From NCBI GenBank assembly GCA_964035015.1, contig OZ035997.1, positions 18,383,866-18,447,865 of the forward strand: a stretch of 64,000 nucleotides of DNA, written 5' to 3'. The DNA comes from Corallium rubrum. Lineage: Eukaryota; Cnidaria; Anthozoa; Scleralcyonacea; Coralliidae. The position numbers and the translations under genes are program-made. Of this stretch, positions 15,881-50,400 are shown in pieces. The notes below the pieces were generated by a model. It was not told where the DNA came from, searched no databases, and saw only the letters and a program-made list of their open reading frames with translations. Within the stretch, counting starts at the first letter, position 1; every line of letters starts with the position of its first letter.

Positions 15881-15925
15881 TGGATTTCAACCGTGGCCGA
15901 CGCTGTCCTAGAAGCTTTTAACTAG

Positions 15926-20106
<4,181 letters not shown>

Positions 20107-20182
20107 AGTCATGGTGGTCGGACACGGCTTTTAGAGCTCCGCCGATATCGAACGTTTTACGCCCGTCTGTTTATTGCTGATC

Positions 20183-21544
20183 ATGGCAGAGTTAGATGAC
20201 GTTATTGTTCAGTTCAAGGGTCAGCCTAGGGATGTTTTGGTTGGTAAATTATTGGATGAAGGCTCGGTTGACACTCTAACAAATTTAAAGCTTATGCTAG
20301 CTGAGAAATGCCGAGTAATCGATGGGTTTCCTAAAGGTGAATTCTTCGCAAGGCGAACGCCGAAAGGAACCAGTTTATACTGCAGTTTAGAAGAACGTTT
20401 GGCTGGTGATATAACCGAGTTATTGAACTTTCTGGACACAGAATTCGTAACGCCGGAATTGCGAAATATGTTCAAGGCGCCTGTGGTCTCGGTTGATGAA
20501 CACTGTATTCCAAATCAGGCCGAGAAGAGGCTTTCGTTTTCTAGCCCACTTCTACATGAAAGACCCAGCGGTTGGTCCGGTATGAAAAGGCAGCTCTTAA
20601 CAATTCAGACCGAGCTCCAAACATTTAAAGAAAAAGTGTCGAGAAAAATTGTAGGCCTTGAAAACAAAATCGATGAACTGTTTGGGGTCATTAAAATTCA
20701 GGACAACGATATTTCTTTTCTCAAGAAACAAAATGAGGATTTGCATAATATTTGCATTAATGCATCGAATGCATCGACTTTCCATCCCGTGGGAATACCA
20801 GCTCCATTATCAGATGAAATGGATACTACGCTTAATGCAGTGAATACAACGACGTGCAGTAATTTTATTCCTGTCATGTCACAACATAACCCTTTGGAAA
20901 CATCATCAGTTCAAATATTAGATGAAACGAGCAAATATGAAAACACTATAACCAATAATAATAAAGTGAACGCCACAGAGAGCAGCAATTATCAAAACCC
21001 ACTCCCTGATACACAAGAAAAACAAATGGCGGTCGCGGTTGAAAGCAGAGAAAGCAATGATCTAAATTATTCTAATGCAGTTAAGTCGGCAACGAAAAGC
21101 GTAAACAACACTCACCAGGCTGCAACAAATAAAAAACCTGGAGAAAACAGCAAAGGCACGGGAGGGATTAGCCAACATGCCCAGAGAAGTATAGTTATCT
21201 GTGATGAACAAGAGAACGTCTCGACATCTGAAAGTGATGGATTTATTGGTGTCAAGCGGGCACGGGTCAATACCAAGCGCTTTTTCCTTAGTGGCATTGC
21301 AGAAAACGTAACTAGGGAAATGATTTTGAGTTACTTATCTAAAAGAGAAGTAAATCCCACACTATTAAGAATCTTCTCCAGTCGACGAAAGGGTACAGTT
21401 TCTGCCAAACTGAATGTGCGTATTAGTGACGCTAATACCATTTCCAAAGACAACTTCTGGCCTAAATTTGTGATATGCAAACCTTGGCTCTCAAAAGAGA
21501 AACTTAGCAAAGATAATGCAGAAAAAACCAAAACAAATGAGTAA
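20183..21544 (+). CDS. LINE ORF1 protein (RNA-binding, coiled coil)
   Basis: 453 residues from ATG 20183 (MAELDDVIVQFKGQPRDVLV); an upstream TTG is less likely. Residues about 130-195 are heptad-like (LTIQTELQTFKEKVSRKIVG, then LENKIDELF and ISFLKKQNEDL), predicting a coiled coil for trimerisation or dimerisation. A low-complexity Asn/Ser/Thr-rich linker follows. The C-terminal part (RFFLSGIAENVTREMILSYL, SRRKGTVSAKLNVRI, FWPKFVICKPWL) resembles the RRM-like module seen in ORF1 of CR1/L2-type LINEs. The expected role is binding element RNA to form the ribonucleoprotein particle. Its stop overlaps the beginning of ORF2, in a different frame, which suggests translation coupling. Confidence 0.8.
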   Translation: MAELDDVIVQFKGQPRDVLVGKLLDEGSVDTLTNLKLMLAEKCRVIDGFPKGEFFARRTPKGTSLYCSLEERLAGDITELLNFLDTEFVTPELRNMFKAPVVSVDEHCIPNQAEKRLSFSSPLLHERPSGWSGMKRQLLTIQTELQTFKEKVSRKIVGLENKIDELFGVIKIQDNDISFLKKQNEDLHNICINASNASTFHPVGIPAPLSDEMDTTLNAVNTTTCSNFIPVMSQHNPLETSSVQILDETSKYENTITNNNKVNATESSNYQNPLPDTQEKQMAVAVESRESNDLNYSNAVKSATKSVNNTHQAATNKKPGENSKGTGGISQHAQRSIVICDEQENVSTSESDGFIGVKRARVNTKRFFLSGIAENVTREMILSYLSKREVNPTLLRIFSSRRKGTVSAKLNVRISDANTISKDNFWPKFVICKPWLSKEKLSKDNAEKTKTNE

Positions 21545-24500
21545 TAAAAATATACGATTTGCAACAATTAACATAAATGGGATTTTAAGTAATATACCGT
21601 ATGTTGAACATTGTCTCAAGTCAGCCGATGTTATGGTTATCCAGGAACACTGGTTATATCCAGATTCACTAAACTTTCTTCAAACTTTCCATCAGGACTT
21701 TACTGGCTGGGGCAGATCGAGTAAGGATTTAAACTTAGATTCCACATGGCGGCGAGGTAAAGGTGGTGTTGCCATTTTATGGAGAAAAGTCCTGGATAGG
21801 AATATTGAACGTTTGTTTGACATTGGTAATGATAGGATTATGGCTATCCGAATAAAAACTGTTACTGGATGTAACTTATTCATTATTAGCGTATATTTGC
21901 CATCGAGTAACTCTTCAGTGAATACATATAAAATGTGTCTTGAAGAACTAGAAGATGTTATAAACCAGCTATATAATCGTGGTACAATTATAGTACTTGG
22001 TGACCTTAACTGTCACATAGGTATGCATGGTGGATCAAGAAGTTTTTCAGAACTTAACGAAAGGGGTAAACTGTTTGTCGGACTGATGCAACGATTTTCC
22101 TTTATTTCACTTAATTCGCAACAGCTATGCTCCGGTCCTCTCGAAACTTTTTACAGCAGCAATGGACATATTAAAACTACTGTTGACCATATACTTATTA
22201 AAGAAGACCAAGCGCATTTAATCAAATCCTGCTATGTAGGGGATGATAACAGCTGCAGTCTATCATTTCACCGTCCAATTTTCTGTGTGTTTCAGGCTGA
22301 CTTAAAAAGTACGCCTACATGTCTAACATCCCGTATTAACTGGAGAAATATGAGAATCGCCACTGTTAAAGAAGCCTACCAGCATGATGTTGCAGTTGGC
22401 CTGGAAAATGATAGCGAATGCGAAACTTCACTAACCAATCTAAATGCAATCGAACAGTCTTTAGCTAAAATAACGTCAATTGTAAAATTATCAGCAGAAC
22501 GATCCATTCCGAAAACAAAATTGAAAAAGAATTTGAAGCCTTTCTGGAAAGAGGGGTTAAAACCCCTTCACGAAAGCTGCCGCCGATATAGGAGACTATG
22601 GATAATGCAGGGTCGCCCTCGCGGATCAGAAAACTGCTTCTTCAGCGATTATAAACGGGCAAAAAGAAATTTTCGTAGAGAACTAAGGCGAAAAGCGTTC
22701 GAGTATGAATCAAGAGAATATGAGCGCCTTGGAAAAACTTTCGAGGTTGATAATAGCTCTTTCCAAAGAATAATGTCAAAAAGAAGAAAGCAGAGAGGAA
22801 TGCAAACGAAATCGCTAAAGATTGATGGGAAATTAATAGATGAACCAGATGACCTACGAAACGTTTGGAAAGAGCACTATTCACAACTATACACCCCGAA
22901 ATTAAATCCGGAGTATGATGAAAGTTTTCTGAATTATGTTACAAGCTGTGTAAAAAGATATGAGAACGAGTCTTACTTCACAGACTACGACGCTTTAGAC
23001 GATATCTTTACGGTCGAAGAAGTTAACAATACTATTGTTCAATTGCCAAATGGGAAGTCCTCCGGTCCGGATGGTTTAACATACGAGCATATTAAATACG
23101 GCGGTATTGCACTAATAACTTTACTTACAACAATACTCAATGCTATTACGTCATTAGAAACAGTCCCGAAAGATTTTACAATGGGCAATATTATATCGTT
23201 GTACAAGACAAACAAGAAAAACCGTTATAACAAGGACAATTACAGAGGGATAACACTAACTAATATACTCTCAAAAATTTTTGAAAGATTGATCCTAAAT
23301 AGATGGATGCCTTATTTTGAAGAAAAGGGTTTTCCAAACAACTTGCAATTTGCTTACCAAAAAGAAAAGAGTTGCATCGACGCAAGTATGTCCTTACAAG
23401 AGTCCATCCTTCATAACATAGAGCATGGAAGTAAAGTTTACTGCTGCTTTCTTGACTCGACTAAAGCGTTCGATACCGTATGGATAGACGGTCTTTTCTT
23501 CAAGATGTATAACCTCGGCATTCAAGGTAAAACTTGGCGTCTTCTACGTAACTGGTATAGTGCACTAACTAGTCGAGTTCTTTTCGATGGCGTTGTTTCT
23601 GATGATTTCTCAATTTTGCAAGGTGTGCGACAGGGTAGCGTTCTTTCTCCCTGGTTGTTTATGATTTTCAACGATGACTTACCTGAAATGGTTAACAAAT
23701 GCAATCAAGGGCTTATGCTCGACAGTCTTTCTTGTAACCCCATAATGGTTGCAGACGACGTAACGTTAACATCTACACGTGTCAAAGGTCTACAAAAAAT
23801 GCTGAACACTCTGGAATCTTACAGCAGAAAGTGGCGCTTCGATTTTAGTCCAACAAAAACTGTTGTAATAACCTTTGGGGAGTCAACCCAAATGTTTAAC
23901 AAACTGAAACGTTATAGAAAATGGACACTCTACGATCGTCCAATAGAACAAAAACGTGCCTGGCCTCATGTTGGTATTGAGCTTTCAGGAAATTTTTCCA
24001 GTGCTAAAAGAACTGAACAAGTTTGCATCAAAGCAAAATTTCAAATGTCTAGCCTAATGAGTATTGGTGCTTGTCCCAGTGCCTTAAATCCAATCTGCGC
24101 CTGCTCATTGTGGCGTACTGTTGGTATTCCAACATCTTTATATGGATGCGAACTGTGGAATAATCTCACAACTAGCGAAATAGAATCACTTGAAAGAACT
24201 CAGAGATTCAACGCTAAGCGCATTCAAGGTCTAGACCCAATGACAAGATCGGAAGCAACAACTGGTAGCATTGGCTTGTGGTCAATGGAGGGAACAATTG
24301 ACAAAGCTAAACTGATATACTTTGGTCGTTTATGCCGTTCAAAAGAAATACTGTTTTCCAAAAGAATATTCACAGCTCGTCTTACTTCACATATGCTACA
24401 TCCAGCAAGACAAAAACTGGGTTTCATACCCGACATCATTCGTACCCTTAATAAATATAACTTGGCAAACTACCTTACCACATACCTAGACGAACAATCA

Positions 24501-25040
24501 TTCCCTTCGAAGTTACCCTGGAAAAACATTGTTTACGATGCGATCGAAAATATTGAAATTGAGAAATGGAAGAATGGAATGTCAGACAAAGACGAGTTAA
24601 CGTTCTACCGTAGAACTCATGCAACTCTCAAGCCATTATATTTATGGGAAGCGGCGAAAAGGAATCCATGTCATAAGGCATCAATCGCTTTGTTAGTGAA
24701 TATCTTATGCGGTAATATACCGCAAACGTTTAACTCATGGATTAGTTGTGAAGATTCTGTAGATAACTGCAACTTCTGCGGTGAACAAAGCTCGAACATA
24801 CCATTCCATTTCGTTATGTTATGTCCAAACTTTAATTCGTGGCGAAATAAACTGTGGGACAAAATCACAGAAACGTTCCCTTTACAGATTGTAGCGGAAC
24901 TATTCTCCCTGGACAACACTGAGTTATACGAGAGTATCATTTCCGGAAATATGCCATGTAGGAACGAGGAACCTGATGTACGTGATCGATTCGCCATTTT
25001 GGTGGCAAGGCACATTCGTGCTCTTACTAAGAATATTTAA
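21516..25040 (+). CDS. LINE ORF2: AP-like endonuclease, reverse transcriptase, zinc knuckle
   Basis: 1,174 residues from ATG 21516; a second in-frame ATG at 21537 fits the ORF1 stop more tightly. The exonuclease-endonuclease-phosphatase domain is complete: TININGI (about 18), QEHW with the metal-binding Glu (44), LGDLNCHIG (161-169), TTVDHILI (221-228) and SFHRPI (250-255). The RT follows with PNGKSSGPDGLTYEHIKYGG, FLDSTKAFDTVW near 645, LQGVRQGSVLSPWLF and VADDVTL near 746. Ala-Asp-Asp is preceded by Val instead of the usual Tyr or Phe. Near residue 1085 a C-x2-C...H...C cluster (NCNFCGE, HFVMLCPNF) forms a zinc knuckle. It would nick target DNA and prime reverse transcription there. No frameshift or stop. 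Confidence 0.92.
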   Translation: MQKKPKQMSNKNIRFATININGILSNIPYVEHCLKSADVMVIQEHWLYPDSLNFLQTFHQDFTGWGRSSKDLNLDSTWRRGKGGVAILWRKVLDRNIERLFDIGNDRIMAIRIKTVTGCNLFIISVYLPSSNSSVNTYKMCLEELEDVINQLYNRGTIIVLGDLNCHIGMHGGSRSFSELNERGKLFVGLMQRFSFISLNSQQLCSGPLETFYSSNGHIKTTVDHILIKEDQAHLIKSCYVGDDNSCSLSFHRPIFCVFQADLKSTPTCLTSRINWRNMRIATVKEAYQHDVAVGLENDSECETSLTNLNAIEQSLAKITSIVKLSAERSIPKTKLKKNLKPFWKEGLKPLHESCRRYRRLWIMQGRPRGSENCFFSDYKRAKRNFRRELRRKAFEYESREYERLGKTFEVDNSSFQRIMSKRRKQRGMQTKSLKIDGKLIDEPDDLRNVWKEHYSQLYTPKLNPEYDESFLNYVTSCVKRYENESYFTDYDALDDIFTVEEVNNTIVQLPNGKSSGPDGLTYEHIKYGGIALITLLTTILNAITSLETVPKDFTMGNIISLYKTNKKNRYNKDNYRGITLTNILSKIFERLILNRWMPYFEEKGFPNNLQFAYQKEKSCIDASMSLQESILHNIEHGSKVYCCFLDSTKAFDTVWIDGLFFKMYNLGIQGKTWRLLRNWYSALTSRVLFDGVVSDDFSILQGVRQGSVLSPWLFMIFNDDLPEMVNKCNQGLMLDSLSCNPIMVADDVTLTSTRVKGLQKMLNTLESYSRKWRFDFSPTKTVVITFGESTQMFNKLKRYRKWTLYDRPIEQKRAWPHVGIELSGNFSSAKRTEQVCIKAKFQMSSLMSIGACPSALNPICACSLWRTVGIPTSLYGCELWNNLTTSEIESLERTQRFNAKRIQGLDPMTRSEATTGSIGLWSMEGTIDKAKLIYFGRLCRSKEILFSKRIFTARLTSHMLHPARQKLGFIPDIIRTLNKYNLANYLTTYLDEQSFPSKLPWKNIVYDAIENIEIEKWKNGMSDKDELTFYRRTHATLKPLYLWEAAKRNPCHKASIALLVNILCGNIPQTFNSWISCEDSVDNCNFCGEQSSNIPFHFVMLCPNFNSWRNKLWDKITETFPLQIVAELFSLDNTELYESIISGNMPCRNEEPDVRDRFAILVARHIRALTKNI

Positions 25041-25182
25041 TAACACCATACATAAACGTATTCTTTCCCTTATCACTTTCGTTAATGTCTATTCTTATTC
25101 ACTTGTTTTATTTTTATTTTTATATGATATAATCCACTGTTTTGTAAAAATATCTTCAGAATTGGAGGAATTAAAGTCTATG

Positions 25183-25764
<582 letters not shown>

Positions 25765-26552: not shown

Positions 26553-26560
26553 CAAATTTC
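26553..26560 (+). repeat. Left target-site duplication CAAATTTC
   Basis: Identical to 35749-35756. The two copies directly flank the inverted termini of the giant fold-back element. Confidence 0.8.
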
Positions 26561-26625
26561 GGCCCTTTCTCGATATATGAGCAACCGAAATAGAGGAGCT
26601 TTTTGGGAAGAGAAGCATACTTAAC

Positions 26626-29600
26626 TCGCCTTAGTCCTCCTTAGACCGACTTAGTCCTCCTTAGACTGCCATAAACTGCCATAGACTGCCTTAGACTGCC
26701 TTAGACTGACTTAAACCAACTTAGACCGACTTAGACTGACTTAGACTGCCTTAGACTGACTTAGACTGACTTAGACTGACTTTGACTTAGACTACCTTAG
26801 ACTGACTTAGACTGACTTAGACCGACTTAGACCGACTTAGACCGACTTAGACCGACTTAGACCGACTTAGACCGACTTAGACCGACTTAGACCGACTTAG
26901 ACCGACTTAGACCGACTTAGACTACCTTAGACTGACTTAGACTGACTTAGACTGACTTAGACTGACTTAGACTACCTTAGACTACCTTAGACTACCTTAG
27001 ACTGCCTTAGACTGCCTTAGACTACCTTAGACTGACTTAGACTGACTTAGACTGCCTTAGACTACCTTAGACTACCTTAGACTGCCTTAGACTACCTTAG
27101 ACTGACTTAGACTACCTTAGACTACCTTAGACTACCTTAGACTGACTTAGACTACCTTAGACTGCTTAGACTGCCTTAGACTACCTTAGACTGACTTAGA
27201 CTACCTTAGACTGCCTTAGACTGCCTAAGACTTCCTTACACTACCTTAGACTGACTTAGACTACCTTAAACTGACTTAGACTGACTTAGACTGCCTTAAA
27301 CTGACTTAGACTGACTTAGACTGCCTTAGACTACCTTAGACTGCCTTAGACTGCCTTAGACTACCTTAGACTGCCTTAGACTGCCTTAGACTACCTTAGA
27401 CTGCCTTAGACTGCCTTAGACTGACTTAGGCTAACTTAGACTGCCTTAGACTGCCTTAGACTGCCTTAGACTGCCTTAGACCGCCTTAGACTGACTTAGA
27501 CTGACTTAGACTGACTTAGACTGCCTTAGACTGCCTTAGACTGACTTAGATTGCCTTAGACTGCCTTAGACTGCCTTAGACTGCCTTAGACTGACTGACT
27601 TAGACTGACTTAGACTGACTTAGACTGCCTTAGACTGCCTTAGACTGCCTTAGACTGCCTTAGACTGCCTTAGACTGCCTTAGACTGCCTTAGACTGACT
27701 TAGACTGCCTTAGACTGCCTTAGACTGACTTAGACTGACTTAGACTGACTTAGACTATCTTAGACTGCCTTAGACTGCCTTAGACTGCCTTAGACTGCCT
27801 TAGACTGCCTCAGACTGCCTCAGACTGACTTAGACTATCTTAGACTGCCTTAGACTGCCTTAGACTGCCTTAGACTGCCTTAGACTGCCTCAGACTGCCT
27901 CAGACTGACTTAGACTGACTTAGACTGCCTTAGACTGCCTTAGACTGACTTAGACTGACTTAGACTGCCTTAGACTGATTTAGACTACCTTAGACTGCCT
28001 TAGACTACCTTAGACTACCTTAGACTGCCTTAGACTGCCTTAGACTGCCTTAGACTGACTTAGACTGACTTAGACTGACTAAAACTGACTTAGACCGACT
28101 TAGACTACCTTAGACTGCCTTAGACTGACTTAGACTGCCTTAGACCGACTTAGACTGACTTAGACTGACTTAGACTGACTTAGACTGACTTAGACTACCT
28201 TAGACTGACTTAGACTGCCTTAGACTGACTTAGACCGACTTAAACCGACTTAGACTGCCTTAGACTGACTTAGACTGACTTAGACTGACTTAGACTGACT
28301 TAGACCGACTTAGACCGACTTAGACTGACTTAGACTGACTTAGACCGACTTAGACTGCCTTAGACTGACTTAGGCTGCTTTAGACTGCCTTAGACTGCCT
28401 TAGACTGCCTTAGACTGCCTTAGACTGCCTTAGACTGCCTCAGACTGCCTCAGACTGACTTAGACTATCTTAGACTGCCTTAGACTGCCTTAGACTGCCT
28501 TAGACTGCCTTAGACTGCCTTAGACTGCCTTAGACTGCCTTAGACTGCCTCAGACTGCCTCAGACTGACTTAGACTGACTTAGACTGCCTTAGACTGCCT
28601 TAGACTGACTTAGACTGACTTAGACTGCCTTAGACTGCCTTAGACTGCCTTAGACTGACTTAGGCTAACTTAGACTGCCTTAGACTGCCTTAGACTGCCT
28701 TAGACCGCCTTAGACTGACTTAGACTGACTTAGACTGACTTAGACTGCCTTAGACTGCCTTAGACTGACTTAGATTGCCTTAGACTGCCTTAGACTGCCT
28801 TAGACTGCCTTAGACTGACTGACTTAGACTGACTTAGACTGACTTAGACTGCCTTAGACTGCCTTAGACTGCCTTAGACTGCCTTAGACTGCCTTAGACT
28901 GCCTTAGACTGCCTTAGACTGCCTTAGACTGCCTTAGACTGACTTAGACTGACTTAGACTGACTTAGACTATCTTAGACTGCCTTAGACTGCCTTAGACT
29001 GCCTTAGACTGCCTTAGACTGCCTTAGACTGCCTTAGACTGCCTTAGACTGCCTCAGACTGCCTCAGACTGACTTAGACTGACTTAGACTGACTTAGACT
29101 GCCTTAGACTGCCTTAGACTGACTTAGACTGACTTAGACTGCCTTAGACTGATTTAGACTACCTTAGACTGCCTTAGACTACCTTAGACTACCTTAGACT
29201 GCCTTAGACTGCCTTAGACTGCCTTAGACTGCCTTAGACTGACTTAGACTGACTTAGACTGACTTAGACTGACTAAAACTGACTTAGACCGACTTAAACT
29301 ACCTTAGACTGCCTTAGACTGACTTAGACTGCCTTAGACCGACTTAGACTGACTTAGACTGACTTAGACTGACTTAGACTGACTTAGACTAACTTAGACT
29401 GACTTAGACTGCCTTAGACTGACTTAGACCGACTTAAACCGATTTAGACTGCCTTAGACTGACTTAAACTGACTTAGACTGACTTAGACTGACTTAGACC
29501 GACTTAGACCGACTTAGACTGACTTAGACTGACTTAGACCGACTTAGACTGCCTTAGACTGACTTAGGCTGCTTTAGACTGCCTTAGACTGCCTTAGACT

Positions 29601-30287
29601 GCCTTAGACTGCCTTAGACTGCCTTAGACTGCCTTAGACTGCCTCAGACTGCCTCAGACTGCCTCAGACTGACTTAGACTATCTTAGACTGCCTTAGACT
29701 GCCTTAGACTGCCTTAGACTGCCTTAGACTGCCTCAGACTGCCTCAGACTGACTTAGACTGACTTAGACTGCCTTAGACTGCCTTAGACTGACTTAGACT
29801 GACTTAGACTGCCTTAGACTGATTTAGACTACCTTAGACTGCCTTAGACTACCTTAGACTACCTTAGACTGCCTTAGACTGCCTTAGACTGCCTTAGACT
29901 GACTTAGACTGACTTAGACTGACTTAGACTGACTTAGACTGACTTAGACTTACTAAAACTGATTTAGACCGACTTAGACTACCTTAGACTGCCTTAGACT
30001 GACTTAGACTGCCTTAGACCGACTTAGACTGACTTAGACTGACTTAGACTGACTTAGACTGACTTAGACTACCTTAGACTGACTTAGACTGCCTTAGACT
30101 GACTTAGACCGACTTAAACCGACTTAGACTGCCTTAGACTGACTTAGACTGACTTAGACTGACTTAGACTGACTTAGACCGACTTAGACCGACTTAGACT
30201 GACTTAGACTGACTTAGACTGACTTAGACCGACTTAGACTGCCTTAGACTGACTTAGGCTGCTTTAGACTGCATTAGACTACCTTAG
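26626..30287 (+). repeat. Left 10-bp tandem array (TTAGACTGMC)
   Basis: About 365 units, mainly TTAGACTGCC, TTAGACTGAC, TTAGACCGAC and TTAGACTACC. The array keeps its 10-bp register with rare slips (27591 and 28816 carry an extra GACT). Longer blocks recur at about 1.2-kb spacing. Reading frames are stop-rich because TAG recurs. It is not a CRISPR (no spacers) and not telomeric. Confidence 0.97.
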
Positions 30288-32683
30288 ATTTGGCCTACAC
30301 AAAGGTGTTCCAGTGGAACTGGGAGAGTAAAGCTTTATACATGTACTTTTGACTTCTTGATAAAAAGTTTAAAAAAAGTCATGAGAGTGTCAATGCAAAC
30401 GAACAGTGAATGGGTTGAACAGTTAATTTATGTGGAAATAGGTAAGTTTATATTTGCGTGTAGATATTTTGATTTTATGTTGTATAAGATATATTACTAA
30501 AATAATTACCAATTGTTGGACCAGGTGAGCAAAATATTATAATTTGTCAGTATCGTAATTAAAGTAAATATTGTAGTAAATATCGTAGTAATTAATCGTA
30601 GTAATTATCGTAGAAATTAATCATAGTAATATCGTAATTATCGTAGTAATTAATTGTAGTAATTATCGTAATAATTATCGTAGTTATAAAATATTTAGTG
30701 TGTCTTTATAAGCAGATTGCTTGATTTACAAGTTCAAAAGCTATTCAACTTTTCTATTCCAGTTTTTTAACTTTAGCACAAATACTGAAATGCAAATCAA
30801 TCCATTATTTGATATTTCAACATACACTTTCACTAAAACTGCTTGCATTTATTACAGTACATGTAGATGTACTGCATCTCGTGATTAAAGTAATTTTAAA
30901 GCAATACACAGTCAATACAAGACTTATACAAGACTGACAAAAAGAGTTTATATTTAAAATTGTCAAAACACTACAACTGTAATTAACAACAAATTATTTA
31001 CAAAATTATACAGACAAATGTTTATTGAGCATTAATGTAAGATCTAAAGTACTTTGAGATCTTAACAATAAGCCATTTGCACGAGGACGTAAAATAGCCT
31101 TGGGTGACTGCAACTACCAGAATGCTTTGCCGGTCCGCTCAATTTATCAGCACTAGGATGCTAGCGAAGCATTCTGGTAGTTGTAGTCAACCCAACGCTA
31201 TTTTACGTCCTCGTGCAAATGGCTTATTGTTAAGATCTCAAAGTACTTTACATCTTACATTAATGCTCAATAAACATTTGTCTGTATAATTTTGTAAATA
31301 ATTTGTTGTTAATTACAGTTGTAGTGTTTTGACAATTTTAAATATAAACTCTTTTTGTCAGTCTTGTATAAGTCTTGTATTGACTTTGTTATATACCAAA
31401 GACTTTCGTTTGCCAAAGATGAAATCCTATTGGTCAAATCATGGTCACGTGTTGTTCAACAAACTCAATGTTTCTTTCTGCCGAGGGAAACATTGCACTG
31501 TTTCCCTCTGACGTCAACAATGAAGAAGGAAACAGTGCAATGTTTCCCTCTGACGTCAGCTTTAAACATGCGTTGTTCACGTGAATACACAATGATTATT
31601 GCATCAGATCAAGAACTTTGGACTTTTCGGAACATTTTGAAAACAAGAGCTGTTTCGAGCTTGTTTGGTACGAAATAGTCCATTTTCCAAAGGAAAGAAT
31701 ATCTATACATCTCTTAAAAGAGGATCTGAAGAAAACCTGGATAAATTTAAAGCTGTTCTTTGTACTTGTTGAGTCTGGTGTATTTGTTTAGTTGAATTGA
31801 AATACGAAGACAAAGTCAGTGTTTTGGTAAGTCTTTTTGCCTTTTGCAAGTTTCGAGTCAGTTTGGTGTTTTGTATTTTAAAAGTCTTTGGTATATAACA
31901 AAACGCTTGTTGACTTTTGCCTCGGGAAACATCGAGTTTTACGGTCCCTCAGGCTTCAATGTCACCCTCGGGCTAAAGCCCTCGGGTAACATTGAAGCCT
32001 TCGGGTCCGTAAAACTCGATGTTTCCCTCGGCGCCACTCAACAAGTGTATAGTGTATTGCTTTAAAATTACTTTAATCACGAGATGCAGTACATCTACAT
32101 GTACTGTAATAAATGCAAGCAGTTTTAGTGAAAGTGTATGTTGAAATATCGAATAATGGCTTGATTTGCATTTCAGTATTTGTGCTAAAGTTAAAAAACT
32201 GGAATAGAAAAGTTGAATAGCTTTTGAACTTGTAAATCAAGCAATCTGCTTATAAAGACACATTAAATATTTTATAACTACGATAATTATTACGAAAATT
32301 ACTACAATTAATTACTGCGATAATTACGATATTACTATGATTAATTTCTACGATAATTACTGCGCTTAATTACTACCTAACGATATTTACTACAATATTT
32401 ACTTTAATTACGATACTGACAAATTATAATATTTTGCTCACCAGGTCCAACAAATGGTAATTATTTTATTAATATATCTAATACAACATAAAATCAAATT
32501 ATCTACACGCAAATATAAACTTACCTATTTCCACATAAATTAAAAAGTGAAAAACTACCCATTCACTGTTCGTTTGCATTGATACTCTCATGACTTTTTT
32601 TAAACTTTTTATCAAGAAGTCAAAAGTACATGTATAAAGCTTTACTCTCCCGTTCCACTGGAACACCTTTGTGTAGGTCAAAT
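30288..32683. repeat. Inner palindrome arms and centre of the fold-back element
   Basis: The left arm 30288-31140 and the right arm 31165-32683 are inverted copies (for example acacaaaggtgttccagtgg versus ccactggaacacctttgtgt-like sequence), with scattered differences. The centre is a hairpin around gaatgctttgc...gctagcgaagcattc. AT-rich runs with atcgtagtaatt repeats occur in both arms. No coding sequence was recognised. Confidence 0.9.
31385..32050. mobile_element. Insertion found only in the right arm
   Basis: The left-arm counterpart reads straight across (tattgactgtgtattgc), whereas the right arm is split after tattgact and resumes at gtgtattgc. The first 517 bp are bounded by ttgttatataccaaagactt and its complement near 31882-31901. 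The rest holds a 100-bp hairpin (ggaaacatcgagttttacgg and its complement, 31924-32030). Repeated gaaacattgcactgtttccc segments lie in the middle. Confidence 0.7.
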
Positions 32684-35600
32684 CTAAGGTAGTCTAATGC
32701 AGTCTAAAGCAGCCTAAGTCAGTCTAAGTCAGTCTAAGTCAGTCTAAGTCAGTCTAAGTCAGTCTAAGTCAGTCTAAAGCAGTCATAGTAAGTCTAAGTA
32801 AGTCTAAGTCAGTCTAAGGCAGTCTAAGGCAGTCTAAGGCAGTCTAAGGCAATCTAAGTCAGTCTAAGTCAGTCTAAGTCAGTCTAAGGCAGTCTAAGGC
32901 AGTCTAAGTCGGTCTAAGTCGGTCTAAGGCAGTCTAAGTCGGTCTAAGGCGGTCTAAGGCAGTCTAATTCAGTCTAAGTCAGTCTAAGTCAGTTTAAGTC
33001 AGTCTAAGGCGGTCTAAGGCAGTCTAAGTCAGTCTAAGTCAGTCTAAGTCAGTCTAAGGCAGTCTAAGGTAGTCTAAGGCAGTCTAAGGCAGTCTAAGGC
33101 AGTCTAAGGCAATCTAAGTCAGTCTAAGTCAGTCTAAGTCAGTCTAAGGCAGTCTAAGGCAGTCTAAGTCGGTCTAAGTCGGTCTAAGGCAGTCTAAGTC
33201 GGTCTAAGGCAGTCTAAGTCGGTCTAAGGCAGTCTAAGGCAGTCTAAGGCAGTCTAAGTCGGTCTAAGTCGGTCTAAGTCAGTCTAAGTCAGTCTATGTC
33301 AGTCTAAGGCAGTCTAAGGCAGTCTAAGGTAGTCTAAGGTAGTCTAAGTCGGTCTAAGTCAGTCTAAGTCAGTCTAAAGTAGTCTAAGTCGGTCTAAGTC
33401 GGTCTAAGTCGGTCTAAGTCGGTCTAAGGCAGTCTAAGGCAGTCTAAGTCAGTCTAAGGCAGTCTAAGTTGGTCTAAGGCGGTCTAAGTCAGTCTAAGGC
33501 AGTCTAAGGCAGTCTAAGGCAGTCTAAGGCAGTCTAAGGCAGTCTAAGTCAGTCTAAGTCAGTCTAAGTCGGTCTAAGGCGGTCTAAGGCAGTCTAAGTC
33601 GGTCTAAGTCGGTCTAAGTCGGTCTAAGTCGGTCTAAGTCAGTCTAAGTCAGTCTAAGTCAGTCTAAGGCAGTCTAAGGTAGTCTAAGGTAGTCTAAGTC
33701 AGTCTAAGTCAGTCTAAGTCAGTCTAAAGTAGTCTAAGTCAGTCTAAGTCGGTCTAAGTCGGTCTAAGTCGGTCTAAGTCGGTCTAAGTCGGTCTAAGTC
33801 GGTCTAAGTCGGTCTAAGTCGGTCTAAGTCGGTCTAAGTCAGTCTAAGTCAGTCTAAGTCAGTCTAAGGCAGTCTAAGGTAGTCTAAGGTAGTCTAAGTC
33901 AGTCTAAGTCAGTCTAAGTCAGTCTAAAGTAGTCTAAGTCAGTCTAAGTCGGTCTAAGTCGGTCTAAGTCGGTCTAAGTCGGTCTAAGTCGGTCTAAGGC
34001 AGTCTAAGGCAGTCTAAGGCAGTCTAAGTCAGTCTAAGTCGGTGTAAGTCGGTCTAAGGCGGTCTAAGTCAGTCTAAGGCAGTCTAAGGCAGTCTAAGGC
34101 AGTCTAAGGCAGTCTAAGTCAGTCTAAGTCAGTCTAAGGCGGTCTAAGGCGGTCTAAGGCGGTCTAAGGCAGTCTAAGTCGGTCTAAGTCGGTCTAAGTC
34201 GGTCTAAGTCGGTCTAAGTCGGTCTAAGGCAGTCTAAGTCAGTCTAAGGCAGTCTAAGTCAGTCTAAGGCAGTCTAAGGCAGTCTAAGGCAGTCTAAGTC
34301 AGTCTAAGTCAGTCTAAGTCAGTCTAAGGCAGTCTAAGGCAATCTAAGGCAGTCTAAGGCAGTCTAAGGCAGTATAAGGCAGTCTAAGGCAGTCTAAGGC
34401 AGTCTAAATCGGTCTAAGTCGGTCTAAGTCGGTCTAAGTCGGTCTAAGTCAGTCTAAGGCAGTCTAAGGCAGTCTTAGGCGGTCTAAGTCGGTCTAAGTC
34501 AGTCTAAGTCGGTCTAAGGCAGTCTAAGTCAGTCTAAGTCAGTCTAAGTCAGTCTAAAGTAGTCTAAGTCAGTCTAAGTCGGTCTAAGTCGGTTTAAGTC
34601 GGTCTAAGTCGGTCTAAGGCAGTCTAAGGCAGTCTAAGTCAGTCTAAGTCAGTCTAAGGCAGTCTAAGTCGGTCTAAGTCGGTCTAAGTCGGTCTAAGTC
34701 GGTCTAAGTCAGTCTAAGGCAGTCTAAGGCAGTCTTAGGCGGTCTAAGTCGGTCTAAGTCAGTCTAAGGCAGTCTAAGTCAGTCTAAGTCAGTCTAAGTC
34801 GGTCTAAGTCAGTCTAAAGTAGTCTAAGTCAGTCTAAGTCGGTCTAAGTCGGTCTAAGTCGGTCTAAGTCAGTCTAAGGCAGTCTAAGTCAGTCTAAGGC
34901 AGTCTAAGGCAGTCTAAGTCGGTCTAAGGCGGTCTAAGTCAGTCTAAGGCAGTCTAAGGCAGTCTAAGTCAGTCTAAGTCAGTCTAAGTCGGTCTAAGGC
35001 GGTCTAAGGCGGTCTAAGGCGGTCTAAGGCGGTCTAAGGCGGTCTAAGGCGGTCAAAGGCAGTCAAAGGCAGTCTAAGGCAGTCAAAGGCAGTCTAAGGC
35101 AGTCTAAGGCAGTCTAAGTCGGTCTAAGTCGGTCTAAGTCGGTCTAAGTCGCTCTAAGTCGCTCTAAGTCGGTCTAAGTCAGTCTAAGTCAGTCTAAGGC
35201 AGTCTAAGGCAGTCTAAGGCAGTCTAAGGCAGTCTAAGTCAGTCTAAGGCAGTCTAAGGCAGTCTAAGGCAGTCTAAGGCAGTCTAAGGCAGTCTAAGGC
35301 AGTCTACTGTAAGGCAGTCTAAGTTGGTCTAAGTTGGTCTAAGTTGGTCTAAGTCGGTCTAAGTCGGTCTAAGTCGGTCTAAGGCAGTCTAAGGCGGTCT
35401 AAGTCGGTCTAAGTCGGTCTAAGGCAGTCTAAGTCAGTCTAAGTCAGTCTAAGTCAGTCTAAGGCGGTCTAAGGCAGTCTAAGGCGGTCTAAGGCGGTCA
35501 AAGGCAGTCTAAGGCAGTCTAAGGCAGTCTAAGTCGGTCTAAGTCGGTCTAAGTCAGTCTAAGTCAGTCTAAGGCAGTCTAAGTCAGTCTAAGGCAGTCT

Positions 35601-35690
35601 AAGGCAGTCTAAGGCAGTCTAAGGCAGTCTATGGCAGTCTAAGGCGGACTAAGTGTTAGTCGGTCAAAGGAGGACTAAGGCGAGTTAAGT
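32684..35690 (-). repeat. Right 10-bp tandem array
   Basis: The same 10-bp family on the opposite strand (read here as AGTCTAAGTC / GGTCTAAGGC), about 300 units. Variants differ in proportion from the left array: GGTCTAAGTC is commoner here. The two arrays have therefore evolved separately since the palindrome formed. Confidence 0.97.
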
Positions 35691-35748
35691 ATGCTTCTCT
35701 TCCCAAAAAGCTCCTCTATTTCGGTTGCTCATATATCGAGAAAGGGCC

Positions 35749-35756
35749 CAAATTTC
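35749..35756 (+). repeat. Right target-site duplication CAAATTTC
   Basis: Matches 26553-26560 exactly and directly follows the terminal GGGCC of the element. Confidence 0.8.
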
Positions 35757-37697: not shown

Positions 37698-38309
37698 CTC
37701 TAATGCTTCCTTTGACGACACAATCTGCATTACTCTGGTTTCTTGTGTAGTTGGTTGTGGCATAAATGGAAACGATTTTGTAAAAACTACAATCTGTGCA
37801 AGATTGCCATCCGTCATCTTAGTATTGACTACAGTAGCTTTTGATGCCTGGTCATATTTTGAATCAAATTCCTTAAAAAGTAAAAAGTGGATAAAATATA
37901 TTGTATACCCATATCCTTATCAAAAATGAAAGGACTGAAAATAGTTTAAATTCTTACTTACCTTCCAACTGACAGACATGCCTCTTGTGTTTTCTGGGAA
38001 TAAGACACTAGGCCAAACACATACTCCAATGCTGTCCTTTCTTAAGCGAGGCATCAACGGTTTTTCCTTATCATAAACTCCTGCAAAACGTCTCATAAAA
38101 TCCTCTGGTACAAAATGTTTTGAACATACCACAGACGAATGTGATGGAGTCCAATCTGCTCTTGTTTCTCTGACGAAGTCGATCCATAATTTCCTTCTCC
38201 TCATCGCCTCAGGTCGTTGGTCGTTAGAATAAGGAATAGAATGTAATGCTATACCATCGTACACATTTGGTTCATTTGAGCAGCCGAGCATAATGCACCG
38301 GTTTGGCAT
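37698..38309 (-). CDS. THAP-domain protein, two predicted exons (3' end unresolved)
   Basis: Exon 1 (38309-37962, 116 codons) starts MPNRCIMLGCSN and carries the THAP C2CH zinc finger: Cys5 and Cys10, LWIDFV with the conserved Trp, then SSVVCSKHFVPEDF supplying Cys and His. It ends in phase 0 at a GTAAGT donor. After a 90-bp intron, an acceptor (ctttttaag) opens exon 2 (37871-37698, 58 codons, EFDSKYDQASKATVVNTKMT onward) to a GTAAAC donor. THAP domains bind specific DNA and occur in transcriptional regulators and P-element-type transposases. This could be either; no transposase core is visible. Exon 3 is not certain: candidate acceptors near 37465-37480 give only short tails. The exon structure argues for a host gene over an intact transposon. 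Confidence 0.8.
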
Positions 38310-38516
38310 TGCTTTGTTTTACAACACTTTAAATAAGCAAAGAACAAACCAACAAAATAAAGATTTGATCTGAATTAAAAATCTTGTCTCGTTGTCAACA
38401 ATGTTCGCAGTCTCAAAGCGGGTACCTTGTTTAACGTCACTTCCGGTATGAAGATTCTTCCGCCAGTGCTCGCTGTTCGCCTGAAAATCTTGTCACTCAC
38501 AAAAATACGTTGGTAT

Positions 38517-39150: not shown

Positions 39151-39319
39151 TATAGAGCGTTTTCACTCATGTGATCGGTGGCCCATTGGGGTGGTGAAAC
39201 AATACGAAATATTTGAATAAGAAAGAGCTAATTCCCATACCGTACACCAATACGGCCGCCATTTCATTCTTTTGGTACACCAATATGGCCGCCGTGACGT
39301 AAGATGAAAACGCTCTATA
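39151..39319 (+). mobile_element. MITE family B, copy 1
   Basis: 169 bp with ends tatagagcgttttca / tgaaaacgctctata. The interior has two gtacaccaatayggccgcc segments, the same core that makes up the minisatellite at 44507..45260. Confidence 0.85.
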
Positions 39320-39509
39320 CTTACACAGTAGGTCTCCAAGACCGTTCTCGCGAAAAGCTTAAATCCAAGTGAGTACACAGTGATGCGTTATATATATAAT
39401 ATATATATAAATATAAAGATATTTTGGCGTGTATCGTTCTATGTTCCGGTTTGATTTCAACAAAAATTTTTAATTTATGGTTTTCAGATCACTCTTAAAT
39501 ACTTGCTTC

Positions 39510-39615
39510 AAAATGCAGGAAAGTGTGTCTGAGACCCTGGAAATCCAAAATTTTCCGGGCGAGCATGCCCCCCTCCTCCCCCCCCAAGGAGACGGAGGTT
39601 CTTGGCCCCCTTGCT
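39510..39615 (+). repeat. G-tract hAT-linked repeat, plus copy
   Basis: Contains aaaatgcaggaaagtgtgtc, gagaccctggaaatcc and ccgggcgagcatgccccc, in the same order as the copy at 43735. Confidence 0.65.
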
Positions 39616-39622
39616 ACGTCAC

Positions 39623-39791
39623 TATAGATCGTTTTCACCTGACGTCACGGCGGCCATATTGGTGTACCGAAACAATGAAATGGCGGCCATATTGGTGTAC
39701 CATTAGTGTACAGCGCTATTAGTATTCTTATTCAAATATTTCGTATTGTTTTACCATGGGTCCACCGATCACATGAGTGAAAACGATCCAT
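39623..39791 (-). mobile_element. MITE family B, copy 2
   Basis: 169 bp, opposite orientation to copy 1 (tatagatcgttttcacctga at the left and gtgaaaacgatccata at the right), again with two gccatattggtgtacc segments. Confidence 0.85.
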
Positions 39792-40703
39792 ATTTACAAA
39801 AAAAAACAACTAACAAAGCCAATTTTACTTTGTCATGTCATTTTGCATTTCTCAGATTATCGTAATAATACCATGTTTACCAAAATTTCTTTTGTTTTTA
39901 TAGACCTTATTCAAAAATAAGAAAAATTAGAATTCTTTTATGTGCATATAAATTAACCATTATGACCTAAAGTAAAAATTCTTTTGAATTTCCTACATAA
40001 AAACGAATTTATAAGGGTTATTAAATTTATATGTATTAACAGCTAATATACTTCAATATTATTTCTTCCAATATATACTCAGGGCCGCCGAGGGGGGGGG
40101 GGGGGGGGGACATGGGTAGGGGAAATTTGCTCCATGGCGTCATACATTATGGAGGGCCTCAAAGATCAAGGGGCCTTACAGAAATGGCCCACAATATTAG
40201 CAAAAATTAAAGTAGATTTAGTTGTTTATTTCAAATTTTAATAGCCATGCACTGCAGGAAATACTGGCTTTCAGTAACCTGCGTGCAGACGCTTGTATTT
40301 CCAGAGCGTGGGTAATTCAATTACCCAAGCTGCGGAAGTGGCACAGGAACCTGAAAAATTTTCCGTTGGGGCCAACCTCGTCCCCAGGGCTGACCCGATC
40401 CCGACCGTCGTCTCTCTGTGGGCCTGAATCCCAGTGCAGTTTTGTTGGATAAATTTGACAAAAGTTTTTCATCATATTCATATGCAATTATAATTTCATC
40501 CAACATGGTGAAAATATCTTTGTCCTTCGAATCTCAAGGGATTGGTTCATTTGGTTGCACACCACCTATAAGGGGTTTGAAAAATATGTATAATGTTACG
40601 ATATTGTCATGAAAGGGGTTTGTAAGAGACCATATATAGACTACACTATACTATGTTGGTGTAGCCCATTCTCTTTCTTAAATTGATTGTATATAATATT
40701 TGT
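39792..40703. other. No gene seen; G run and short repeat remnants
   Basis: AT-rich, with a 17-G homopolymer near 40093 and a fragment ccaacctcgtccccagggct at 40373, which resembles the terminal repeat of the Mutator-like MITE at 46057. Confidence 0.4.
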
Positions 40704-40984: not shown

Positions 40985-42946
40985 TAGACCTTTTCACCAA
41001 TAGCGGCGCCATCTTGAATTCGCAGGGCATTATCACAGAATAAGGATCAACCAGAAGTCCAACTCGCGGAAAAAAGTGTCCCATTATTTTTATGCGCATG
41101 CGCCAGTCCGCCATTTTGAAAGTAAGTGCACCCGGGAAATTATCCCCCTCGTCCTTACGATCCTCGGGCTCCTGTAGTCAATTACTCTTGGCCTTCTTGT
41201 GACCTTGTAATTAACTTTACATTGTTGTCTATATATATATATAAATAATATTTAGTTAAGTAAATAAGTAATTTACTTTAGAAAACGATTCTTTGGAGAT
41301 GAAATTCTTTGACCACGAGGCTATTAAAACTTCACTACGCGGATACTACGGGTAAAAGTCCGTGGCAAAAAAGTCCTGTACTCACGAAGCGGGTTTTACA
41401 TTTCTCGATTAATGCCGACACATTTGTTTATAGAACAAGATGGCTAAAATTTACGGAACTACGCATTGTTGAAATACATCGGGTACGTATGTTGTTACTT
41501 GTAAATTTTATAAGCTTTCATTCGGTATATAGTTCAAATCATAGTGTTACCTGTAACTTTTTAAAATGTTCAAAATGTTCTGATCATTGACCATAAAAGT
41601 TTTAATATTTTTTCATATATTCAAAAGGTATGATCACTAATTTGCACCAAAAACGTTTTCAACTTCAACTAGAAATCTGCAAACATTTCCACTCCTTTCA
41701 TTCCTTTCATATTTGAATTAGTTTCTGTTCAAGAAATATCTTAGGTCCATGCCAGAAGTCTTTCTGAGGTTATAGCAAACACCAAAACAACAAAAGGCAA
41801 AACAAACTTAAGAAATTCATCCATATCAGACGGTCCACGTCAAAATAATGGGGTTTTTTCATATTTTAAAATACTTCCCAGCAAGAAAATTAAAAGTTTA
41901 GACATGAATAGCACTTGACAGTACCCTTTGTGTAATATCTTGTTCAGGGCTGTGTGTTTAATATTTAAAAACAAAATCCAAAATTCTATAACACTTGTGA
42001 GGAGTCCATTTCCCATTATATAATTCTTATTTTACGAGCAATGGTGAGAACATTTTGAACATTTTAAAAAGTTACAGGTAACACTAAAATTTGAACTATA
42101 TACCGAATGAAAGCTTATAAAATTTCTAACAACATACGTACCCGATGTATTTCAACAATGCGTAGTTCCGAAAATTTTAGCCATCTTTTTCTATAAACAA
42201 ATGTGTCGGCAAAATCGAGAAATGTAAAACCCGCTTCGTGAGTACAGGACTTTTTTGCCACGGACTTTTACCCGTAGCATCCGCGTACTGAAGTTTTAAT
42301 AACCTCGTGGTCAAAGAATTTCATCTCCAACGGAACGTTCTCTAAAGTAAATTACTTATTTACTTAACTAAATATTATTTATATATAGAGAGAACAATAT
42401 AAATTTAATTAAAGGTCACACCAAGGCCAAGAGTAATTGAATACAGGAGCCCGAGGGTCGCAAGAACGAGAGGGCTAATTTCCCGGGTGCACTTACTTTC
42501 AAAATGGCGCCGGGATCGCGAGGCCGACATTTCCCGAGGACGCTTACATCAAAGGTGCCGACAGAGAGTTGGACTTCTGGTTGATCCTTATTCTGTGGCA
42601 TCATGGTCTATCCAGGGTAACAAGCTCACAATGCAGTAATTTTTTCTTTATAAATACTTTCATGGCAACAATATCTAAATATAATAATTGTCATATTGGT
42701 AAAAGCAACAATTATCGGACGTGTAAGGATAGATTCATGGCAAATGTATCCTTATACGTACGAGAATTACTGCTTTTACCATTATGACAACGATCATATC
42801 TAGACATTGTTGCCATGAAAGTGTTTACAAAGAAAAAATTACCGCATTGTGTCTCAACACTAAGCAATCACCCTTTTAATGGAGCTTGTTACCCTACTAC
42901 AATGCATTGCGAATTCAAGATGGCGCCGCTATTCAGTGAAAAGGAG
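40985..42946. mobile_element. Fold-back element of about 2 kb, with a nested insertion
   Basis: The left arm 40985-41590 and the right arm 42050-42946 are inverted copies (caatagcggcgccatcttga, acttttacccgtagcatccg versus its counterpart, ttttaaaatgttcaaaatgt). The loop 41591-42050 is AT-rich. The right arm is split at about 42606-42905 by a younger element. The short frames here (41309-41590 and 42416-42604) are arm sequence. Confidence 0.85.
42606..42905. mobile_element. MITE nested in the right arm
   Basis: The ends ccagggtaacaagct and agcttgttaccct are inverted, as are inner segments such as ctttcatggcaacaatatct and ttgttgccatgaaag. The uninterrupted left arm shows the empty site. Confidence 0.75.
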
Positions 42947-44095: not shown

Positions 44096-44506
44096 GACTA
44101 CAAATCACTTTTTTTAGTGCATCCATAAAAATATATTAAAACACGATCAAGTCGGTTTTCTTTGGTTTTTTGTAAATTTATATATAGGGATTGTATATAT
44201 AAATCCTGGGGATTATATTCAGAGAGATCGTAAATTGATGGGGATTATATATATATAAAGCCTGGGGATTATATATATAATCCTATGAATTTATAATTGC
44301 CCAATTCATAGGGTGCATGCTACAACGATCTCGTATCGTAACGCCGGTAGCACATACGAAAAGGAGAGCAAGCCAGCAAGGGTTTGCTTTTCGCTCACGT
44401 AGTTTACGAGAGGAAGGCAAACCAATGAAAATCATCAAAATCTGTTGGTTGAGACAGCACTTTATTACACTGAACGTTGAGCATAAAATGTGGGATTGAT
44501 ACTGTT

Positions 44507-45260
44507 TGTTTTGGTACACCAATATGGCCACCATTTCATTGTTTTGTACACCAATATGGCCACTATTTCATTGTTTTGGTACACCAGTATGGCCACCATT
44601 TCATTGTTTTGTACACCAATATGGCCACTATTTCATTGTTTTGGTACACCAATATGGCCGCCATTTCATTGTTTTGTACACCAATATGGCCACTATTTCA
44701 TTGTTTTGGTACACCAATATGGCCACCATTTCATTGTTTTGTACACCAATATGGCCACTATTTCATTGTTTTGGTACACCAATATGGCCACCATTTCATT
44801 GTTTTGTACACCAATATGGCCACTATTTCATTGTTTTGGTACACCAATAAGGCCACCATTTCATTGTTTTGTACACCAATATGGCCACTATTTCATTGTT
44901 TTAGTACACCAATATGGCCACCGTTTCATTGTTTTGGTACACCAGTATGACCACACTATTTCATTGTTTTGGTACACCAATATGGCCGCCATTTCATTGT
45001 TTCTGTACACCGATATGGCCACTATTTCATTGTTTTGGTACACCAGTATGGCCACACTATTTCATTGTTTTGGTACACCAGTATGGCTGATTGGCCACTA
45101 TTTCATTGTTTTAGTACACCAGTATTACCACTATTTCATTGTTTTAGTACACCAGTATGGCCACTATTTCAATGTTTTGGTACACCAGTATGGCCACTAT
45201 TTCATTGTTTTAGTACACCAGTATGGCCACCATTTCAATGTTTTGGCAGACCAGTACGGC
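44507..45260 (+). repeat. 33/32-bp minisatellite derived from MITE family B
   Basis: About 23 units of ttttggtacaccaatatggc then caccatttcattg. In the first two thirds, 33-bp units with GGTACACC alternate with 32-bp units lacking one G, so a 65-bp dimer is the real repeating block. Units diverge after about 44940 (ccagtatg variants). The long HQYGHYFIVL-type reading frames over this region are artefacts of the repeat. Confidence 0.95.
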
Positions 45261-47470: not shown

Positions 47471-50400
47471 ATGCTTAAAGGAAATTATTTGGTCATAGTA
47501 TTGATATTCTGTCAAGGTAAGTTGCTTCTACAGTATCTGTATTCTTATAGCCAACACTCTTATATATTAGTGCATGGAAAACTGGTCGCTTACCGGAAAC
47601 TGAAGCAACACAGTTTAGCCCAAAATTGAAGTGAATGCGTAATAATATAAATGTAGTGCATGCCTTTATAGCTCATATATGCCAAGCATGTAGACAATGC
47701 CACATCCTTAAAACTCATTTATTCTTGGTTTGTATAACACATTTATTTTTACATTTTATGAAAGTCAATAAATAGTGACTTCATGCAGTAAATACAAACT
47801 AAACAAAATAAAATCTGCAATGACAAAGCCGTACATGCACGAGGTAGAACTATCGAAATTGGGAGTAAAACATGCTCGATATAGATAATGCGCATTCAGT
47901 TCTTTATCAGTAAAGCCTAGTTCACACTTGTCGTAAGAATCGCAGCAATGTTATCGTGGCCGATGGCATAGAGTGCTGTCATTCTAGACTGTGTGATTTG
48001 CATATATACAGTAGTCAAGACACAATAGAACAATAGAATAATATTGTATTGTGTCTTGACTACTGTACATATGCAGACTGGCAGCACTCAATGACATCGG
48101 CCAGCATAACATTGCTGCGATTCTTACGACAAGTGAGAACCAGGCTTTAGCGCCATTAATAATTGAACTGTTATGACGTTATTTGAATAATGATTAAGTA
48201 GTAAGGGACGGACCATTATATTTTTGAGGAGGGGGTACCAAAATTCGTGCACAACAAATCAATAGGGAAAAAATATCGAGCAAGCTATATTAACAGAGTT
48301 CGGTTGTTCAATTTCCGGGGTCTATATTTCTGTGTTTTTGTAGATTTTCTTGCACCATGCACTGCCTTTTCTACAGGGCCTTTTTTAACTGATACAAGCT
48401 CCCTCCTTGAGCCCACCCCCCCCCCCAAAGTCCCCTCTTGAGCCCTCCACGAATTGATTTTGCTCCCCCCGAGTAAAAGTTCCTTTTTGCTGAAGTACGG
48501 AAAGAAATGAACAAAGAATAAAGCAATAAAGATATAAAAGGAAAATTTCGGACTCAGGCTATTACCATAAACAGGTATAGATAAATCTTTGCAGTAAAAT
48601 AGTTTATATTTTGATAAGATTATGTGGTGACGAAAAATCATTTTACTGTTCCTCACAAAATTTTCCACATTGTATTTGAAAGTGAACAAGCTGATGAGTT
48701 CTGACAAAGCGAAACGACCTTCAGTGTTCTTAAAAATCACCCCTCCGAATGCAGGAAATGGCATTTACGAGACTCTAAATTTCAAAAATTTCCGGGGGGC
48801 ATGCCCGCGGACACCCCTGGAAGAGTCCCTTTTTGGGAACGGTAGTTTATCAAACAGCAGTTGATATGAGCAGCTGTTGTAAATCCCAAACACCGGTTCG
48901 GCCACGAATATATTGTATGCTTAAAATACGGATGCATCTTAACATATAACGATGTTTATCGATTATATTGGAGATTCGAGCCATTTTAGCTGAGTAAATC
49001 GAAAGAAGTTTATGCAACTCGACACGATGTTGTATCCGATTGACAGTATACTGATTAGGAGCCATTTCTTTTATCGTTTCTTCATGAATTGTTAATGATA
49101 TTTTAACTTAGTTAATTATTTATATAATTATAAAAAATGTATATGGACGAGAGTCGAATCGCACCGGAAAACGCAAGAGATTTTGGGTTTTTTCAAAATC
49201 CCGTGGAATTTAGGGGTTTTTAAATTTTTATTTTTGAGTTTTTCTTTATTTTTTACCAAAATGGTGTATATTTGAATAATATTTGTCTAACTAAATAACT
49301 ATAAGTATTTAATTATTTAACTTAACTAAATTTTTAAGGTTTTCAAGTTGTTTTCTCAAGACGATTGTTTATCAGGCATGGTGGACGAGACAACATTTCT
49401 TGTGGAAACTCGACTTCTCCATGCAGTAGTGTAAGATTTGCAGTGAATATTTCCAATTCTGGCGACGAAATTCTCATTGATCACGCGCAGGGAAGACCAT
49501 ATAATGAATGTGAATCTTTTAAACAGTCGCAATGTTCCATTGAGCTGACTAAATCTCTTTCATTTTCTGGCATTAATGGGAAAGCAGTTATACAGTGCGA
49601 AAAAAATGCGCGGATTTTTTAAAGATACAGAGTTCTGGTTTTAACATAACAAAAATTGTTTTTACTAATCTTGTGATTTCAACGTCCACTACTTTAATAA
49701 GATGTTCGAAGTCAAACTTTGAATTGGTGTTGAAACATTGTATTTTAAAGAACTATAACGATGGTGTTTACACAAAAGGTTCAACACACTGCTCAGTTGA
49801 AGCATTCAACTCAAGTTTTGAAGAAACCTCGAATTTTGGAATTTGGTTAAGTTGTCTCAATCTTACATCTAATTTCACATCCGCTTCTTTTAACGCAGCG
49901 CCTGTAGCTCTTCAAACCATCTTTGACATCCAAAAACGTTGGCAAACAACCGAAATTTTTATCTCGAACTGTATTTTTGATGGCAGACAAAAACAAAACA
50001 TGTGTGCTGAACTGCTTTCAATAAAACCTTTTGCTGTAATAGTGAGTATTACTGTCGAATTATCAAGATTTAGCAATCACTTTGGGATGTGTTCCAGTGG
50101 TGGTCCGTTTTACACATTAAAGATACAAGATGACAGCACTGGTTTGCAAGAAGCAACATTAATGACTTTGAGTAAACTACTTATCGAAAATAACCACTGC
50201 GATTTATCAGCCGTCAAATTGTCCCCTGCGTTCAACTTCAAAATGTTTACAGTAGAATTATCAAACAGCATTTTCAGGAACAACTCCGGAGCTTTGCTTA
50301 AGATGCACGATGTCAAAAGATCAAGCGGATCTAGTATAGTGATTTTCAATAATATATTTCGAGAAAACTATAAAGGACATGGAATTACAAGCTCTACAGC

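Follow-up and report, generated by a model that had tools for sequence, protein, structure and literature searches.

A 9.2-kb foldback element with inverted 10-bp tandem arrays in Corallium rubrum, probably a non-autonomous DNA transposon

The locus and its neighbours

We analysed a 64,000-nucleotide stretch of Corallium rubrum contig OZ035997.1, hereafter the window. Positions 26561-35748 of the window (9,188 bp) form a near-complete inverted repeat with mirrored arms and exact 8-bp direct repeats on its flanks. Most of the element consists of these long inverted arms, which measured 4.5 kb on the left and 4.6 kb on the right, the latter including an insertion without which it is ~3.9 kb. Drosophila FB arms reach several kilobases, and we therefore make no claim to a size record.

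The longest stop-to-stop frame in the element was 117 aa; this frame opens within the inner arm (31325) and extends into the nested insertion. None of the six window ORFs scanned against Pfam is located within the element, and Rfam at the gathering threshold and ARAGORN each returned 0 matches. Within the window, no second terminus was present with as many as 5 substitutions allowed per 30 bases, and there was no empty site, as the joined flanks matched themselves only. Terminus and array patterns, two per collection, gave 0 matches, a result confined to viral and prokaryote sequences.

Several other repeats and coding sequences surround the element. Upstream, the interval 15922-25681 holds two reverse-transcriptase ORFs, one at ~17.2-19.2 kb and one at ~21.5-25.0 kb. 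No more than ~160 bases after each of them comes a long array of tetranucleotides (ATCT/TCTA) that looks like a retrotransposon 3' tail. Downstream, a THAP-domain exon was detected by Pfam on the minus strand at 37920-38318, with a splice donor recognised by eye after the exon. An unrelated second long palindromic element of ~2 kb occupies 40989-42944; its arms (41109-41598 and 42030-42509) are 92% alike and its outer inverted ends (40989-41031 and 42901-42944) 91% alike. An inverted-repeat, MITE-like element at 39151-39792 holds two stretches, at 39267 and 39648, that resemble the 33-bp unit of a minisatellite at 44506-45260 with 4 substitutions in 28 bases each. This resemblance suggests another transposon-derived tandem array.

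An 854-aa ORF at 49577-52553 matched nothing in Pfam at 0.001; it has 142 relatives, several of them on shared contigs. Among the matches listed (120 of 142), those from the octocorals Paramuricea, Dendronephthya and Xenia showed 36-49% identity below the best 19, and those from the stony coral Oculina came after the octocorals at 27-28%. The ORF apparently belongs to a multi-copy octocoral gene family.

Termini, arrays and inner arms

The two ends of the element are mirror images. The left terminal inverted repeat (26561-26642, plus strand) starts with GGCCCTTTCTCG and extends on its inner side into the first units of the array; the right terminal inverted repeat (35667-35748, minus strand) is identical to it as a reverse complement at 82/82 bases. 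The terminus begins GG (GGCCC). Directly abutting both termini is the target-site duplication (TSD) CAAATTTC, at 26553-26560 on the left and, as an exact match, at 35749-35756 on the right. At local base composition, 8 bases would match by chance at a set boundary with a probability of ~6.7e-5. Beyond these flanks, the window holds one further copy of the octamer, at 53589, and two copies of its reverse complement, at 11995 and 40122. A duplication of 8 bp falls in the foldback range of about 7-10 bp.

Inside the termini lie two tandem arrays of opposite orientation, both with a TRF period of 10. The left array (26628-30288, plus strand) comprises 365.8 copies with 90% matches, and its commonest units are CTTAGACTGC and CTTAGACTGA; the right array (32683-35654, minus strand) comprises 297.7 copies with 91% matches. 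Separate tokenising gave unit counts of 363 and 295, respectively. Array copy numbers in the assembly are approximate and may be inexact. Exact 9-mers of the array unit were confined to the element, with 407 occurrences inside it and 0 in the rest of the window. Counts across the 10-bp unit mostly favoured CTTAGAC, yet off-consensus unit types were spread over many positions, and we claim no constraint on this core.

The arrays differ in their higher-order structure. In the left array, two copies of ~1.2 kb (27395-28628 and 28629-29812) align over 1,184 bases at 97.4% identity, with 50 gap columns. The right array has its own 20-unit higher-order repeat, present as two copies in 33599-33998 with 20/20 units matching. 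Correspondence between the arms was seen at the array edges: the three innermost units are identical between arms, and the outer units are close counterparts of each other. Off-consensus bases were scored over ten outer and five inner units per arm, with odd-length units given a flat score of 5. Scores per unit were 0.8 (left) and 0.9 (right) for the outer ten units, 0.6 at the inner edges, and 0.20 and 0.12 in the cores; a single odd-length unit contributes 5 of the 9 points scored for the outer edge of the right array, and without it this edge stands at ~0.44 per unit.

Unit-by-unit local alignment of the two arrays gave a score of 35.0; 200 Markov shuffles averaged 23.9 (sd 3.9) and 1/200 reached that score, a result in favour of a degree of common order. 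The reversed-order control scored 32.1, and the maximum of 12 earlier shuffles was 35.8. The 520 bases beside the inner marker were 88.7-90.4% identical between left and right, compared with 87.3% (sd 1.5, maximum 91.0) in 60 random in-register windows. Given the reversed-order control, the earlier shuffle maximum and random windows reaching 91.0%, we claim a shared unit order for the array edges only; overall, unit order is at most weakly related between the arms.

Between the arrays, the arms continue as unique sequence. The left inner arm (30280-31105, plus strand) is an inverted copy of the right inner arm, which is divided by an insertion into an inner part (31190-31385, minus strand) and an outer part (32052-32691, minus strand). 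The inner part matches the left arm, reverse-complemented, at 194/196 positions (2 mismatches, 0 gap runs; 99.0% identity), and the outer part shows 610 matches, 20 mismatches and 3 gap runs (96.8% identity). The central loop (31106-31189) contains an imperfect 29-bp hairpin formed by 31102-31130 and 31164-31192. A DNA fold of the central 496 bases (30900-31395) had z = -41.3, and 0/100 shuffles were equally good.

The nested insertion of 666 bp (31386-32051) is present in the right arm only, its junctions being defined by comparison with the uninterrupted left arm. It consists of a segment with 22-bp inverted ends (31385-31406 and 31881-31902) followed by a palindrome at 31898-32053. By eye, no clear TSD of this insertion was recognised. 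The insertion is later than the arm duplication.

The first-pass annotation had described inverted termini, perfect 8-bp flanking repeats, inverted 10-bp arrays, inverted unique inner arms and a short central hairpin, all of which were recovered here. Its placement of the element among foldback-class transposons with tandem-repetitive arms is supported by this anatomy.

Nature of the element and source of its transposase

We consider it probable that 26561-35748 is a foldback (type-2) cut-and-paste DNA transposon that is non-autonomous and relies on a transposase supplied by a different element, most likely a Mutator-like/Phantom one. Movement in trans had been proposed in the first-pass annotation and fits an element with no frame above 117 aa. 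Nothing we found supports the accompanying proposal of a hAT- or P-type transposase; in the published passages considered, elements with short tandem repeats in their terminal inverted repeats (TIRs) and 8-10-bp TSDs are Mutator-like. We prefer the Mutator-like superfamily because this is true of Muta and Tm1, and with moderate confidence a Mutator-like attribution would replace the hAT/P attribution.

The 8-bp duplication does not discriminate among superfamilies, being compatible with Mutator-like, hAT, P and Merlin elements. Mutator-like elements are described with 8-11-bp TSDs and commonly long TIRs, and Mutator-like transposases of the Ghost subgroup are on record in cnidarian genomes (PMC6446971). 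Both the duplication length and the long TIRs are found here, though they are not exclusive to Mutator. Short subterminal tandem repeats, which are usual but not defining for Mutator-like elements, were also present by TRF. In the view of the authors describing Tetris, the majority of foldback elements seem to belong to Mutator, although exceptions exist (PMC4079207).

It is unlikely that the element was moved by a P-superfamily, Galileo-like transposase whose THAP domain binds the repeats. P-type termini begin CA, and P elements have TSDs of 7-8 bp; the 8-bp TSD observed here fits P but not the 7 bp of Galileo, and the GG end departs from CA. Such a source would be consistent with the long, internally repetitive TIRs of Galileo and the THAP sites within their repeats (PMC3573991, PMC3688188), and with the description of Drosophila FB as P element-related (PMC7642927). 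Binding of the THAP domain of the transposase to tandem-repeat sites in the TIR was shown for Galileo, and the same source states that for Foldback and Phantom elements such repeat binding still awaits experiment (PMC3688188). Galileo repeats, however, are ~210 bp long and its TSD is 7 bp (PMC3573991). The THAP-domain exon at 37920-38318 is only 2.2 kb away, but it lies outside the element and is followed by the splice donor seen by eye. A protein search with this exon yielded one candidate and no match over a range of ~73-231 aa, in which full-length transposase relatives are invisible. Lying outside the element and giving no match within this length range, the exon was rejected as part of a P-type partner.

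Movement by a hAT or Merlin transposase appears somewhat less likely again. The 8-bp TSD is compatible with both, since hAT elements have TSDs of 8 bp and Merlin elements of 8-9 bp. Merlin termini may begin GG, which would fit the end seen here. hAT termini begin CA or TA, and the GGCCC end departs from both. Against either source, the literature passages considered describe no hAT or Merlin foldback element with short tandem arms.

We regard a non-transposon origin as very improbable. On that reading, breakage or replication template switching inverted and lengthened a minisatellite, and the 8-bp repeats arose by chance or repair. A single copy is in view, and inverted duplications are common, as is the growth of minisatellites, but the termini outside the arrays are base-identical and abut the 8-bp repeat on both sides (8-mer chance ~6.7e-5), and the layout matches foldback families already described. 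An assembly or sequencing artefact, whether from a fold-back read or from an arm duplicated in error, is equally improbable. Long palindromes and arrays of short units are difficult for assemblers, but the arms differ by 22 substitutions and by indels, and their unequal array lengths, different higher-order repeats and one-arm 666-bp insertion argue against a fold-back read.

For a foldback transposon mobilised in trans, we propose that a transposase encoded by another element, most likely Mutator-like/Phantom, would recognise the terminal 70-80 bp. We infer that the 10-bp units may act as secondary binding sites for this Mutator-like transposase. Such secondary binding would raise recognition of the ends and so offset the cost of length. 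Unequal exchange or slippage within each arm would then expand and homogenise the arrays, such that the array cores turn over fast, and the array edges and unique inner arms would retain a record of the original inverted duplication. Differing array organisation, shared edges and cleaner cores are the expected outcome of unequal exchange or slippage confined to the individual arms. The arrays look like tracts that expand independently and carry possible secondary transposase sites.

A further suggestion, which we hold to be very doubtful, is that the several hundred sites and the palindromic form are functional and not the product of drift. The element would then serve as a transposase sponge, or would produce long dsRNA that silences its own autonomous family, as a natural equivalent in an animal of the Muk inverted repeat of maize, and would be large for that reason.

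At 9.2 kb and with no transposase of its own, such an element would test the limits of terminal-repeat growth, whether repeated binding sites pay for length, and the speed at which arrays diverge between two mirrored arms. Inversions and gaps in assemblies are also likely consequences of long palindromes.

Comparison with known foldback systems

Sea-urchin TU elements, compared by description only, have mirrored short-tandem-repeat arms, a middle region and unequal arms, like the element described here. TU is named among foldback elements (PMC4079207), and in the passages considered known foldback elements come from insects, one nematode genus, plants and sea urchin. Among the titles listed from mostly non-subscription literature on foldback or Mutator elements and corals or cnidarians, no cnidarian foldback family was recognised. 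In the portion of PMC6431247 considered, the sole mention of foldback concerns Drosophila.

The first-pass annotation had called the element very large, and its arms of 4.5 and ~3.9 kb bear this out against TIRs of up to 1,735 bp in Tetris, ~1.26 kb in Galileo and 1,193 bp at most among 322 types of arthropod MULEs, as given in the passages considered. Drosophila FB, again compared by description only, likewise has mirrored short-tandem-repeat arms, a middle region and unequal arms (PMC7642927). It differs in its 27-31-bp repeats in blocks of five, end sequences of 467-479 bp and 9-bp TSD (PMC7642927).

Galileo, a member of the P superfamily, resembles the element in its long, internally repetitive TIRs with differing repeat numbers in the two TIRs (PMC3573991). 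Secondary transposase-binding sites in the repeats, putative here, and non-autonomous copies consisting of two TIRs are further likenesses (PMC3573991, PMC3688188). Unlike the present element, Galileo has a 7-bp TSD, ~210-bp repeats and, in D. mojavensis, TIRs of no more than ~1.26 kb (PMC3573991). Tetris of D. virilis is also a foldback element with an 8-10-bp TSD and no transposase found, and the tandem repeats within its TIR occur as satellite-like arrays as well (PMC4079207). Its units are ~220 bp long, in contrast to the 10-bp units here, and its TIR reaches 1,735 bp (PMC4079207).

Closer likenesses were seen among Mutator-like elements. In the Aedes Muta MULEs, 9-15-bp subterminal tandem repeats occur in 10/12 long-TIR families and 8-9-bp TSDs in 14/14 families, and a short terminal motif is followed by the subterminal tandem repeats, as in the present element (PMC5225508). 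Muta1 is classed by its authors as a type-2 foldback element (PMC5225508). It differs from the coral element in its 145-bp TIR, where nine 12-bp repeats alternate with spacers of 3-4 bp, in encoding a transposase and in being without multi-kb arrays; its 10-bp imperfect palindromic end has no counterpart here by eye (PMC5225508).

Tm1 of Meloidogyne, a Mutator/foldback element, shares short tandem units in the TIRs in unequal numbers at the two ends, a terminal motif outside the array and a TSD of 8-10 bp (PMC3169594). A further likeness is that only one transposase-encoding member, of Phantom type, is described, in M. incognita (PMC3169594). Tm1 differs in having 1-9 units per TIR, most often of 14 bp, compared with ~300-366 here, in the ~0.9-kb size of its histone-hairpin class compared with 9.2 kb, and in its asymmetric 7-bp ends compared with symmetric termini (PMC3169594). 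The C. rubrum element is an outsized new representative of the already known foldback class.
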